Source of the DNA: Ilumatobacteraceae bacterium
Lineage (GTDB): Bacteria; Actinomycetota; Acidimicrobiia; Acidimicrobiales; Ilumatobacteraceae
Reading direction: 5' to 3'
NCBI GenBank assembly: GCA_030727685.1
Contig: JANRBC010000027.1
Span: 1-37,265 of the forward strand
Length of the DNA: 37,265 bases
Position 1 is the stretch's first letter. Each line of letters begins with the position of its first letter. The notes beneath the pieces were generated by a model, which saw nothing but the letters and a program-made list of their open reading frames with translations, was not told where the DNA came from and made no database searches. Positions 933-8,364 of the stretch are shown here, piece after piece. The position numbers and the translations under genes were made by a program.

Positions 933-1994
933 ATGTCAACAGTTGAACTAGACGGCGCGGTAACTCTCAAGAATTTATTTAAGTCGTACGGAGACCGAGT
1001 TGTCGTTAATGACGTCTCGTTAGAAATTAAAGCAGGCGAGTTTTTCTCGATGTTGGGGCCGTCGGGTTGTGGCAAAACAACGACCTTGCGCATGATCGGT
1101 GGCTTTGAGCAGCCTGACAGCGGCAGCGTATTTATCGACAACCGCGATGTAACCCGCGACGAGCCAGAGGAGCGGCCGTTAAACACGGTTTTTCAGAACT
1201 ACTCATTGTTTCCACATCTCAATGTCAAAGAAAACGTCAAGTTCGGTCTGCGCTTCGAAAATAAGTTCACGAAGAATACGAAGCCTGAAGATCAAAGAGT
1301 TGGCGAAGCGCTTGAACTAGTGCAACTGGGCAGTTTTAGCGAGCGTCGAGTGCACCAACTTTCGGGTGGCGAGCAACAACGTGTTGCATTGGCTCGTGCA
1401 CTGATACTTGAGCCAAGTGTTTTGTTGCTCGATGAACCACTTGGTGCGCTCGATGCACAGTTGCGCGCCAGATTGCAGATTGAACTAGCGACCTTGCAAC
1501 GTCAAATCGGCATCACATTTATTTACGTCACGCACGATCAGCATGAAGCCTTCACAATGAGTGACCGCATCGGCGTGATGCGCGCTGGTCGATTGATGCA
1601 AGTTGGTGCGCCACGCGAACTTTATGAATCACCCAACTCGGTTGAAGTGGCTCAGTTCATTGGCGCCGCAAACTTGATTGCCGGCGAGGTAACCGCGCGC
1701 GGCGTGGTCGAGTTTGCCAATGAGAAATTTGTTTGTTCTGAATCAGCACCATTGGGCAAAGGCATGATGATGATTCGACCAGAGCGTATTCGAATTGGTT
1801 CGGGCTCGCACAAGGCGATGATCGAACGAGTTACTTTTGCGGGTTCAAGCCTGCGTGTTGCTCTTAAAGTAGGCACCGAAACTATCAACGCAGAAGTTGC
1901 GAACGATGAAACTTCGGCGAGTCTTAGTGCGGGTCAAGTCACGACGATCGATGTTCTGCCCGACGCCGTGCGTGTTCTGCCGCTTTCGATTTAG
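933..1994 (+). CDS. ABC transporter ATP-binding protein (PotA/spermidine-putrescine type)
   Basis: Walker [10 protein letters not shown], signature [15 protein letters not shown], Walker [13 protein letters not shown]-terminal TOBE-like region. Confidence 0.93.
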
Positions 1995-2863
1995 CTGTTT
2001 ATTTGGGTGACATCGGCAAGCGCTGCTCTCAGTCCGCCGCGTTCACCGTGTCGCTTGCGCCAGGTCGACAGACCGAACAATCCGATAATCAACACAGCGA
2101 ATGAAGTCAGAACGAGAAGAGTTGCAAGGGCGTTGAGTGCTGGCGTCGCACCACCACGCACTGACGAATAAATACGCAGTGGCACCGTCTCAGAACTGAC
2201 ACCAGCAGAGAGAAAACTTGTGATCACAAAGTCGTCGATCACAGTTGCGAAAACAACCACGAGACTGGCCATAACTGATGGCCAGAGCATTGGTAAAAGC
2301 ACGAAGCGCAACGCTTGCCATCTGGTGGCGCCAAGGTCTCTCGCTGCTTCTTCAAATGATGCGCCGATTGAAACGAGTCGTGCTCTCACGATGACGACGA
2401 CGCTGGCCAGTGAAAACGTGACGTTGCCCAACAACTGGGCAACGAACCCGAGTGGCACAGCGGTAAATAAACGGGTGAAAGTTAGGAGCAATGCGGCACC
2501 GACGACAATTTCGGGAGTAATCAGCGGCGTTGATGTCAAACCTTGGACAAAATTTGCACTACGACCACGAATGCGCTGTGAACCGATCGCCAAAGCAATG
2601 CCGAGCGGAGTGACAACAAGTATCGTCGCGAACGCCAACACGAGCGAGTTCGAAATCGCATTTCGGGTTTCATCGTTGCGAAAGATTGAGGCGTATGGGT
2701 CGGTGATCCACCAGCGAAGCGAGAAGCCTTGCCAAACTGTGCGACTTCGACCGTCGTTGAAAGAATAAATCACAGCGATTAAAACTGGTACGAGACTCCA
2801 GATGATGTATCCCCAAATTAGAAATTTAAGCGACAGGTTGCGATGGTTTGTTGCGTGAGCCAT
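1991..2863 (-). CDS. ABC transporter permease (PotC-like)
   Basis: Multi-TM protein with EAA loop (EEAARDLGATRWQALRFVLLPMLWPSV); follows the PotB-like gene. Confidence 0.9.
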   Translation of the reverse strand: MAHATNHRNLSLKFLIWGYIIWSLVPVLIAVIYSFNDGRSRTVWQGFSLRWWITDPYASIFRNDETRNAISNSLVLAFATILVVTPLGIALAIGSQRIRGRSANFVQGLTSTPLITPEIVVGAALLLTFTRLFTAVPLGFVAQLLGNVTFSLASVVVIVRARLVSIGASFEEAARDLGATRWQALRFVLLPMLWPSVMASLVVVFATVIDDFVITSFLSAGVSSETVPLRIYSSVRGGATPALNALATLLVLTSFAVLIIGLFGLSTWRKRHGERGGLRAALADVTQINS

Positions 2864-2867
2864 TGGG

Positions 2868-3785
2868 TTATCTCGTCACTTGTCGGGTTTGTTGCCGAGT
2901 GCTGCGCAGATAGAACGACATAAACAGCAGCAAGAACAACGAAAGTGCGAGCACAAGCAGTGCGCCATTTTGCGGTTGAGAACTGGCATTCAAAAAGAAG
3001 TCAATTTGATTGCCGATCATTTCGGTGCTTGGTGAGCGTGAAAGCAGATCATTCGTGTAGTAATCGCCGAACATCGGCAAAGCGATCAAGATTCCGGCGG
3101 CGACCAAACCGGCTTTTGACATTGGCAAAGTCACTAATCGAAAGGCTTGCCGTGAGTTCGCACCGAGATCGCGTGCCGCATCGACTAATCGCCAATCAAG
3201 ACGCTCGAGTGTCGCATAGAGCGGCAAAATCAAAAACGGAATATAGCCATAGACCAAGCCAAGAATCACCGTGATAGGTGAGCCGTCAAGCCAGTTGTAG
3301 TTGACCCCGAATATGCGCATGAAACGAGTGAACAAACCATCGACGCTAAGCAAATTGACCCACGCCAACATGCGCATTAGATAGTTGACCCAGAACGGCA
3401 CGATGATCAGCACCAGCAAAAGAATTTTGCGCTTGCCGGCGTGCCGTGCCAAAAAATATGCGATCGGAAACCCGATGACAAAACTCAGGCTCATCGCACA
3501 TACAACGTAAACAACTGTGCGAATCGCCACACCTTGTAGCGGGCCTGTCGCAAGACTCGTGAAAATTTGTTGTGCTTGCACGAAATTCCATGACAGCGGG
3601 TTCCATTGCGGCACGGCGTCACGAAAGACCGGGTCGATCGTGCCAAATGCGACGCACGCCACTGCGTAAAACGGAATCGCGAAAAGCACGATCAGCCACA
3701 CCGTGCCGGGAATTGCAAATCCCGCCCAGAGGCGAGGTGATTTATTCAATTTAATTTGCGTCAGCCAGCGGTAAAGCGTGTCCAT
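2868..3785 (-). CDS. ABC transporter permease (PotB-like)
   Basis: Multi-TM protein with EAA-type loop (DAARDLGANSRQAFRLVTLPMSKAG). Start ATG 3785 preferred; GTG 3797 also possible. Confidence 0.88.
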   Translation of the reverse strand: MDTLYRWLTQIKLNKSPRLWAGFAIPGTVWLIVLFAIPFYAVACVAFGTIDPVFRDAVPQWNPLSWNFVQAQQIFTSLATGPLQGVAIRTVVYVVCAMSLSFVIGFPIAYFLARHAGKRKILLLVLIIVPFWVNYLMRMLAWVNLLSVDGLFTRFMRIFGVNYNWLDGSPITVILGLVYGYIPFLILPLYATLERLDWRLVDAARDLGANSRQAFRLVTLPMSKAGLVAAGILIALPMFGDYYTNDLLSRSPSTEMIGNQIDFFLNASSQPQNGALLVLALSLFLLLFMSFYLRSTRQQTRQVTR

Positions 3786-4981
3786 TGGTCGAGCCACAGA
3801 GCATCGACTGCTGGCTCAAGTGAAACTTGGGCGAGGCCGGCCTCGTATTTTTCTGGCGTGACCAATGCATCGATCAACGACTCGGGGATTGTGCCACTCG
3901 AGATCAGAAGATCAACTGTTATTGATTCAAGCGCGGGCTGGTAGCCAACGTACTCACGGTTGAGCAATGCGTTATCTGTGTCACTCAAGAAGTTGATTAG
4001 TTGATGCGCAAGCACGGGCGCCTTCGCACTCTTGGTGATGCACATGAAGTCATTCTTGGCCACCGTCTTTTCTGGATACCAAAAGCCCAAAACATCTGGC
4101 GCCTCATTTTCTGGAAGATATTGCAATGCAGTGAATAAATCACCAGACCAAGTGAAGTTGATGTCGCGGTTGCCAGAAGGAATCTCTGTGTACGCCAAAA
4201 TATCAACTTTTGGATTAGTCGCCTCACGCAATGCAACTAAATCATCGCCAGCTTTTTGAATGATTGCCGCATCAGCCGTGTTGGCGTCGAAGTTGCCCGC
4301 ACGAAACATCGCCATTGTCAATGTGTCTCGGTATGAGTCGAGCACTCCGGCTTTGCCTTTGAACTGCGAATCCCAAAGCGTGTCATAGCCGTTGCTCGCA
4401 AATGCATTCTTGTCAATGCGATCGGTTCGATAGCCGATGCCGTTGCCATAAATAAAATACGGCACTGTGTATTGCGAGTCGAGATCGTAATAAGGACTTC
4501 GTAATCCGCTAATCACATTGCCAAAATTTGGAATGTACGACTTGTTGAGCGGCTGAAGCAAATCGGCAGCAATAAGTTTTGCCAACCCGGTATCTGTCAT
4601 GCCAAGGATTAGGTCTGGTTTGAAAGTGCCATTGCGCAACTTGGCGATGGCAGCTTCTTCTGTGTCGTAGATGCTGGTCACAACTTTGCATCCAAATTCT
4701 TTTTCAAAAATTGCGATCGACTCGGGGTTCTGATAGTCGGCCCAGTTGAGAACCTCGAGTGTGCCCGACTCGTTTGGCAAACCATCGGCAATTGCGTCAG
4801 TTGTTACTGGTAACTTCACTGGGTTTTGTGGCGTGCCGATTGATAAGCCACTCGACTCAGTTGATGATGAACCACCGCAGGCAGCAAGCAACGAACCGCC
4901 AATTGTGATCGCACCCGAAGTTATGGCGAGGTTTCGCAAGAAGTCGCGACGCCCCATTGGTCTAAATGGTTGGTTGGTCAT
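3761..4981 (-). CDS. ABC transporter substrate-binding protein (PotD/spermidine-putrescine-like), Tat-type lipoprotein
   Basis: N-terminus GRRDFLRNLAITSGAITIGGSLLAACGG (twin-arginine plus lipobox); 'LEVLNWADYQNPESIAIFEKEFGCKV' typical of PotD-like proteins. Confidence 0.9.
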   Translation of the reverse strand: MTNQPFRPMGRRDFLRNLAITSGAITIGGSLLAACGGSSSTESSGLSIGTPQNPVKLPVTTDAIADGLPNESGTLEVLNWADYQNPESIAIFEKEFGCKVVTSIYDTEEAAIAKLRNGTFKPDLILGMTDTGLAKLIAADLLQPLNKSYIPNFGNVISGLRSPYYDLDSQYTVPYFIYGNGIGYRTDRIDKNAFASNGYDTLWDSQFKGKAGVLDSYRDTLTMAMFRAGNFDANTADAAIIQKAGDDLVALREATNPKVDILAYTEIPSGNRDINFTWSGDLFTALQYLPENEAPDVLGFWYPEKTVAKNDFMCITKSAKAPVLAHQLINFLSDTDNALLNREYVGYQPALESITVDLLISSGTIPESLIDALVTPEKYEAGLAQVSLEPAVDALWLDQWTRFTAG

Positions 4982-4998
4982 GGACTAAACTTAGCAAC
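4982..4998. promoter_or_regulatory. Shared divergent leaderless promoter (potD-like / aminotransferase)
   Basis: Palindrome TAAACTTA-like core: plus TAAACT (4986-4991)+N7+ATG 4999; minus TAAGTT (4993-4988)+N6+ATG 4981. Confidence 0.65.
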
Positions 4999-6387
4999 AT
5001 GCGTTCGCTCGACCAAATAATCGAGGCCGAAGAGCAAACATTTCTGCGTCGGGTACCTAAGTCGGTTGCCCTCCACGAGAGAGCCTCGTTGTCAATTCCT
5101 GGTGGTGTGCCGTCGAGTTGGGCAAGTTCGCGACCGACCCCAGTATGGGTCAGTCATGGCGAAGGTGCATACGTTTGGGATGTGGACGACAACCAATACA
5201 TCGACTTTCATGCCGGCTATGGCGCCAACATTGTTGGTCATGCGAATCCGAGCGTGGTTGCTGCCGTGCAAAAGCGCGTAACACAGGGCACGCACTTTGC
5301 CCAACCCACACCCGACTCGATAGTCGTTGCCGAAGAGTTGTCGCGCAGATTTGGTTTGCCGCAGTGGAGATTTTGCAACTCAGGAACAGAAGCGACGATG
5401 GACGCCGTGCACTTGATGCGCGCAATCACGGGTCGCGATTTGATCATAAAAGTTGAAGGCTCGTACAACGGCCACCACGACTCTGTCGCGATTTCAATTT
5501 TTCGCTCGGCGCAAGAACTTGGCCCCGCCGACAAACCATGGCTCACCCCAGGCGCCGGAATTCCGCAAGCGATTGCCGATTGTGTTCGTATCGTGCCATT
5601 TAATGACATTGACGCGCTGAGACATGTGCTTGCTGAATACGACGGCCAAATTGCCGGAATGATTTTCGAACCAATTTTGATGGGCGCAGGCATAATCGTG
5701 CCACAACCGGGGTATTTGGCGGCGGTAAAGAAGTTGGTTCATCAACATGGCGCGCTTTTGACATTTGACGAAGTTAAAACTGGTTTAGTGATTCACCAAG
5801 GTGGCGCAACTGCAATGTACGGCGTTACTCCAGACATAATTTGTCTTGCTAAAGCATTGGGAGGTGGCTTGCCATGTGGTGCAATCGGTGGCACGACTGA
5901 AGTGATGTCGGCAATCGCGAATGGCAGTTATAGCCAAGTCGGAACTTTTAATGGCAACCCATTGACGATGGCTGCAACAAAAGCCGTTCTGACTGAAGTA
6001 TTGACCGACGACGCGTATGCGCAAGCCAACGATGTGGGTGCATATATTTTGAAACACGCTGTATCGACTTTGCAAAGTCGCGGACAAGGTGCACACGGAT
6101 ATCAGTTTGGTTTCAAAGTATCGGTTGTCTTCTGCGCTGAGCCAGCAAAAAACTATCGTGACTTTCTAGAAGTAAGCACAGGTGCGATGCACCTGAATTA
6201 TTTAAAGCAATTTAACCGCGGAGTGTTTTTGGCGCCGTGGGGCAAGAGCGAGTCGCTCACACTTTCAGTTGCTCATACACGCGCGCATGGCGATGTGTTC
6301 TTGCAGAATCTTTCGCAACTTGCAGAGGTGATCGAATCTATGAGCGAGCGCAACTCAGAGGTTTTTGTCGCAGGTAGTTTTAACTGA
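4999..6387 (+). CDS. Class III (fold type I) PLP aminotransferase / glutamate-1-semialdehyde aminomutase-like
   Basis: FCNSGTEATMDAVHLMRAITGRD..VEGSYNGHHDS; FDEVKTGL; LAKALGGGLPCGAIGG with PLP lysine. Start ATG 4999 chosen over upstream ATG 4966, which overlaps potD. Confidence 0.9.
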   Translation: MRSLDQIIEAEEQTFLRRVPKSVALHERASLSIPGGVPSSWASSRPTPVWVSHGEGAYVWDVDDNQYIDFHAGYGANIVGHANPSVVAAVQKRVTQGTHFAQPTPDSIVVAEELSRRFGLPQWRFCNSGTEATMDAVHLMRAITGRDLIIKVEGSYNGHHDSVAISIFRSAQELGPADKPWLTPGAGIPQAIADCVRIVPFNDIDALRHVLAEYDGQIAGMIFEPILMGAGIIVPQPGYLAAVKKLVHQHGALLTFDEVKTGLVIHQGGATAMYGVTPDIICLAKALGGGLPCGAIGGTTEVMSAIANGSYSQVGTFNGNPLTMAATKAVLTEVLTDDAYAQANDVGAYILKHAVSTLQSRGQGAHGYQFGFKVSVVFCAEPAKNYRDFLEVSTGAMHLNYLKQFNRGVFLAPWGKSESLTLSVAHTRAHGDVFLQNLSQLAEVIESMSERNSEVFVAGSFN

Positions 6388-7483: not shown

Positions 7484-8364
7484 TTGGTTTTCCACCCTAA
7501 ACCAGTTGGAATATCTTCGTAGTCGACTGTCCAGAGTCGACCGCCATTTAGATCTGACCCGTCGTAACAGCGATAGCCGAGCAGGCGTTGTTGTAGAGGG
7601 GTCAATGTTTTTGCGCGGTCTTCGGTGACGCCAAGGCAACCTGCTTCTTCGGGTGTGAGCCAGCCATATATATATGACATGTGAAGGCCGAAGCGGGCTT
7701 CGTTTTTTGTTTTGTTGGCACCTGCGCTGTGAAGAACCTTTCCGGTGTAGATCATGCCGCTGCCGAGTGGCATTGCTGCTTGTGTGATTTCGTCTTCGGT
7801 GGCCTCACGCTTGTAGTCGGTCCATTTGTGGCTGCCGGGCGCAACACGTGTCGCACCGTTTTCGGTTGTGAAATCAGAAAGCGCGAGCATGCAACTAATT
7901 TGGCAAATCGATGTTGTCGGCGTATTCATGGTCGGCCAGTCGTCAGAGTCTCGATGCATGTATTGCGGGTTTCCGCCTGGCATGACGATCATCATTTGGC
8001 CGGTGTTCATCCAGTAACTCGCGCAATGTGGTTTGAGCAGAGCATCGGCGACGCCGAGCAAAATCGGGTGCACGAGCACCTCGTCGGCAAAAGTTTGTGA
8101 GCGTTGCGCGAGGCGTGTGAACCGCTTGGTTTGCTCTCCCCAAAAATGATTGACGAGCTCGTGGCTTGTCTTTGGGCCGATCTGTGTCGAAGTTGTAGTC
8201 GTTTTGAGTTCTTCGAGCATTCGCGCTACGACTTCGGGGCTCAGCATGTTGTGCACGATCACACCGCCATCGCGGTCAAGAATTTCGAGAATTTCGCTGA
8301 GTGGTGCAGTCTTGCCATCAACAACTGCGAGATTTGGTTTGATCGTCGCAGTCTGCGTATTCAT
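7480..8364 (-). CDS. Phytanoyl-CoA dioxygenase (PhyH) family Fe(II)/2-oxoglutarate oxygenase
   Basis: HRD (HxD) at YMHRDSDDWP, distal His/Arg region VLHSAGANKTKNEARFGLHMSYI; ATG at 8364 six nt after a TAGGAT -10. Confidence 0.85.
   Translation of the reverse strand: MNTQTATIKPNLAVVDGKTAPLSEILEILDRDGGVIVHNMLSPEVVARMLEELKTTTTSTQIGPKTSHELVNHFWGEQTKRFTRLAQRSQTFADEVLVHPILLGVADALLKPHCASYWMNTGQMMIVMPGGNPQYMHRDSDDWPTMNTPTTSICQISCMLALSDFTTENGATRVAPGSHKWTDYKREATEDEITQAAMPLGSGMIYTGKVLHSAGANKTKNEARFGLHMSYIYGWLTPEEAGCLGVTEDRAKTLTPLQQRLLGYRCYDGSDLNGGRLWTVDYEDIPTGLGWKTK

Follow-up and report, generated by a model that had tools for sequence, protein, structure and literature searches.

The two kinds of control element combined at the locus described here are known separately. 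In the bidirectional promoters of Warman, Grainger and colleagues (PMC12825309, PMC10268837), −10 elements of opposite strands overlap without a strong −35 element; where the −10 is symmetric, 18 bp is the commonest spacing of the two transcription start sites (TSSs) and positions −7 and −11 are reciprocal. The E. coli basal bidirectional promoters that were tested fire so seldom that transcription one way leaves the other unaffected (PMC12825309). Actinobacterial leaderless genes, according to Zheng et al. 2011 (PMC3160421) and Cortes et al. 2013 (PMC3898074), carry TANNNT a few bases ahead of the start codon and no Shine-Dalgarno sequence, each gene having its own −10.

The closest described gene pairs are from M. 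tuberculosis. The divergent neighbours prpD and Rv1129c both have leaderless transcripts, and lysG/lysE is a divergent pair with overlapping promoters, in which lysE is leaderless from a second promoter (PMC3898074; PMC5648196). The accessible sections of these two sources report no −10 common to two start codons for either pair. We analysed a window of 37,265 nucleotides from an Ilumatobacteraceae bacterium, in which a potD-like gene and an aminotransferase gene diverge from a 17-bp intergenic region. Unlike lysG/lysE, which extends over 108 bp and includes a regulator and an inverted repeat, and unlike the leaderless genes with a −10 each, this region appears to have one core for two genes.

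Results

The potD/aminotransferase region

The features of the region are as follows.

933-1994: PotA-like ATPase gene
1991..3797, minus strand: PotB-like and PotC-like permeases, downstream of potD (PF00528 twice; best NCBIfam models PotB and PotC)
3761..4981, minus strand: PotD/PotF-like substrate-binding protein with a Tat-like MGRRDF signal (NF007048, E=3.2e-25, under the curated cut-off)
4982..4998, both strands: whole intergenic region, 17 bp, holding both candidate promoters
4986..4993, both strands: candidate shared symmetric −10 core TAAACTTA, eight bases, six of them invariant in 26 distinct syntenic loci
4986..4991, plus strand: predicted aminotransferase −10 hexamer TAAACT, 7 nt before ATG 4999 (7-8 nt in relatives)
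4988..4993, minus strand (reads 4993-4988): predicted potD −10 hexamer TAAGTT, 6 nt before ATG 4981
4999..6387, plus strand: class-III (PLP) aminotransferase, glutamate-1-semialdehyde-aminomutase-like (PF00202, E=6.7e-64)

The nearest NCBIfam models for the aminotransferase are HemL-like, under their curated cut-off. Its 3' end overlaps that of a convergent Rieske oxygenase gene at 6380-6387. Among eight loci of the window's own group, most changes in the codons of the potD product's N-terminal extension MTNQPFRP (read from 4981) fall at third positions, which makes translation from 4981 credible; the aminotransferase start is conserved as ATG or GTG in all 26 syntenic loci.

A direct read of the sequence gives CAT at 4979-4981, GGACTAAACTTAGCAAC at 4982-4998 and ATG at 4999-5001, confirming the original prediction of start codons 17 bp apart with TAAACT-N7-ATG on the plus strand and TAAGTT-N6-ATG on the minus strand. 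The −10 elements of the two strands overlap within 4986-4993, and the start-codon A's (4981 and 4999) are 18 bp apart. Taking these A's as +1, A4988 is −11 on the plus strand and −7 on the minus strand, T4992 is −7 on the plus strand and −11 on the minus strand, and A4993 is the −12 T of the minus strand. If the A's are the TSSs, the 18-bp spacing and the reciprocal −7/−11 positions are those of the bidirectional promoters described above (PMC12825309, PMC10268837), from which the locus differs in that its products are predicted leaderless mRNAs of metabolic genes and its element is conserved across species.

There is no Shine-Dalgarno sequence in 4982-4998, and an operator would have no space outside the coding regions. 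We detected no inverted repeat of at least 7 bp in 4950-5030, and a promoter scan of the intergenic region reported no −35/−10 pair. A TTGGTC-like hexamer lies 17 bp behind the minus −10 (TTGTCA-like in another genus), within conserved Leu-Asp codons of the aminotransferase; it was set aside as a −35 candidate because protein conservation can account for its retention.

Leaderless-type −10 elements across the genome

The genome sample covered 1.13 Mb of the same assembly (133 contigs, ~80% of the assembly), with 1039 genes called de novo from dicodon statistics by a home-made caller, not a trained gene finder, that made no use of upstream sequence. TANNNT was found 6, 7, 8 and 9 bp before 104, 48, 41 and 38 of 986 called starts, respectively, versus about 7 at other spacings, and both potD and the aminotransferase gene carry it within the same 6-9 bp. 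The two −10 elements are thus positioned like those of the genome's leaderless promoters. Leaderless-type −10s were present on both sides of 49 of the 123 divergent pairs, a count that permitted alternative starts and is hence biased toward finding −10s; among these 49 pairs, the 17-bp gap of potD/aminotransferase is the smallest. Many of the 49 have back-to-back −10s at gaps of 29-39 bp. A very close leaderless-type pair of the window, PhyH dioxygenase/luciferase-like oxidoreductase at 8364(-)/8394(+), has separate back-to-back −10s, TAGGAT and TAGCCT, in a gap of 29 bp.

Besides potD/aminotransferase, two short-gap pairs of this genome have overlapping −10s.

C37, 3943(-)/3967(+), gap 23: GNAT acetyltransferase/phosphotransferase-like gene, ATCCTAAGGT
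C78, 22533(-)/22558(+), gap 24: PpoB2-family membrane protein/HTH regulator, ACTATAGT

The C78 pair reads TATAGT-N8-start in both directions, and the near-palindrome GATTACTATAGTTATC is invariant in all 15 genus loci (L288-L302). Since this longer near-palindrome is invariant beside an HTH gene, the shared −10 of C78 probably sits inside an operator, which would overlie a bidirectional promoter and serve autoregulation. Simple counting of CAT-N5-7-AAVTTA-N5-7-RTG across 201 genomes gave no clear excess over a reversed control, and a gene-anchored analysis was adopted instead.

Conservation in syntenic relatives

We collected 26 distinct loci, after removal of duplicates, in which potD and the aminotransferase gene are divergent and adjacent; they are related by descent and represent fewer independent events than 26. 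The named relatives are freshwater Acidimicrobiia/Ilumatobacteraceae MAGs, one of them labelled acIV. The core is TAAACTTA in 18 loci, TAACTTA in seven and TACCTTA in one, leaving six of the eight positions invariant (T, A, C, T, T, A), both −12 T's included, so that each half of the core is conserved. Bases to the left of the core are variable, as are those to the right except for a mostly conserved G, and every one of the 102 four-fold codon columns in the aminotransferase gene shows variation (mean pairwise identity 0.40). Such near-constancy of the core beside scrambled neutral bases makes a genuine shared promoter, not a chance match, very likely.

The −10 lies 7-8 nt from the aminotransferase start in 26 of 26 loci and 6-7 nt from the potD start in 16; in the other 10, the core is still present and a leader places the potD start 28-43 nt downstream. 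The predicted leaderless arrangement therefore fits throughout on the plus side, and for potD in the 16 loci only. The central proposal of one symmetric −10 serving two leaderless starts is well supported by the genome-wide positioning of −10s, by the conserved −12 T's and −11/−7 positions, and by the loss of symmetry where the genes are separated (below).

Discussion

We suggest that the 17 bp are very probably one bidirectional, −10-only promoter giving two leaderless mRNAs. A functionless match in AT-rich DNA would need little, TANNNT being a weak motif (which counts against our preferred explanation as well) and CAT-N17-RTG occurring 594 times in 1.13 Mb of this genome; both −10s are present in only one of these 594, the probability of both at 6-8 bp spacing is about 0.0002 (~0.02%) in a random genomic 17-mer and about 0.005 (~0.5%) after shuffling this 17-mer itself, and both halves proved to be conserved in the relatives, an outcome that would refute a chance match; chance is accordingly very improbable. 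The −10 could alternatively be used by the aminotransferase gene alone, its symmetry being incidental and the potD promoter lying inside the aminotransferase gene. The unbroken leaderless arrangement on the plus side would fit this, as would the 10 loci with a potD leader, which speak against the shared promoter, and two overlapping plus-strand registers (TAAACT and AAACTT) could account for the majority of the conserved positions. Against this stands the core's last A: required by the minus promoter alone, it is present in every one of the 26 loci, whereas elsewhere in this genome A follows the hexamer in 26 of 191 leaderless promoters. Moreover, in L223 a cupin-domain gene (PF07883; 2541-3001) sits between potD and the aminotransferase gene, each of which has a separate −10: TAGGGT-N7-ATG for potD and TAAGTTG for the aminotransferase gene, with G replacing the last A and the symmetry gone. 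This is a single locus that allows no statistic; the protein tree places it inside the clade carrying the shared core, so the separated state is most simply a loss. Where an aminotransferase orthologue has no adjacent potD (L036, L037), its leaderless-type −10 lacks the symmetry. We regard use by the aminotransferase gene alone as quite unlikely.

The conserved core might instead be the operator of a transcription factor controlling both genes, in keeping with the common co-regulation of divergent transporter/enzyme pairs and with C78, where the shared −10 lies in a longer palindrome. The central C of the core (4990) likewise never varies among the 26 loci; the −10 consensus accepts any base at this position, and the −10 model gives no explanation for the invariance. 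In three distant Actinobacteria (L244, L249, L252), potD and the aminotransferase gene diverge across 153-256 bp containing a GACTGA..TCAGTC repeat (L244 and L249 by repeat finder, L252 by eye), with a BetI/TetR-type gene near the pair in L249 and L252. This repeat is present in none of the 26 shared-core loci; conservation there extends over 7-8 bp, as much as a −10 occupies, with no conserved palindrome wider than the −10, which argues against an operator, and no regulator gene was found among the nine neighbouring genes examined. The sequence TAAACTTA occurs seven times in this genome and the reversed control 67 times. A transcription factor regulon built on TAAACTTA was considered and rejected, the six other genomic sites being no coherent promoter set. 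An operator thus appears quite unlikely, and we infer, indirectly, that the freshwater lineage once had a regulated intergenic region and lost it.

Returning to the bidirectional promoter, we propose that RNA polymerase with a housekeeping sigma factor would bind the TAAACTTA core in two alternative orientations. The rightward polymerase would start at or beside the A of ATG 4999 and the leftward polymerase at or beside the A of ATG 4981, and both mRNAs, beginning at start codons, would be translated as leaderless mRNAs. With a single docking site, the two orientations would physically exclude each other. Low basal firing would then lead to constitutive expression of both genes, with the core determining their ratio. 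The original prediction was that the shared site would couple uptake to catabolism; this is speculative, and shared constitutive output at a fixed ratio seems more likely than active coupling, because the basal bidirectional promoters tested in E. coli have firing rates too low for interference.

A conserved pair with one −10 between two start codons was not found in the mostly non-subscription literature, parts of which were available; relative to these sources the combination of the two known elements as a compact conserved unit is new, its novelty being unproven. The questions whether one −10 fires two mRNAs and whether the directions compete are reduced here to single-base tests with clear predictions.

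Tentatively, selection may maintain a class of minimal "two genes, one −10" units in streamlined freshwater Acidimicrobiia. These would replace a regulated ancestral intergenic region, and polymerase orientation alone would fix the product ratio. If this is true, the promoter, both TSSs and both translation starts of such units would fit in about 23 bp. The host organisms appear to have dropped the local regulator. Judged by its sequence, the potD/aminotransferase region is near the lower size limit for the control of two divergent genes, and selection has preserved it in many species.
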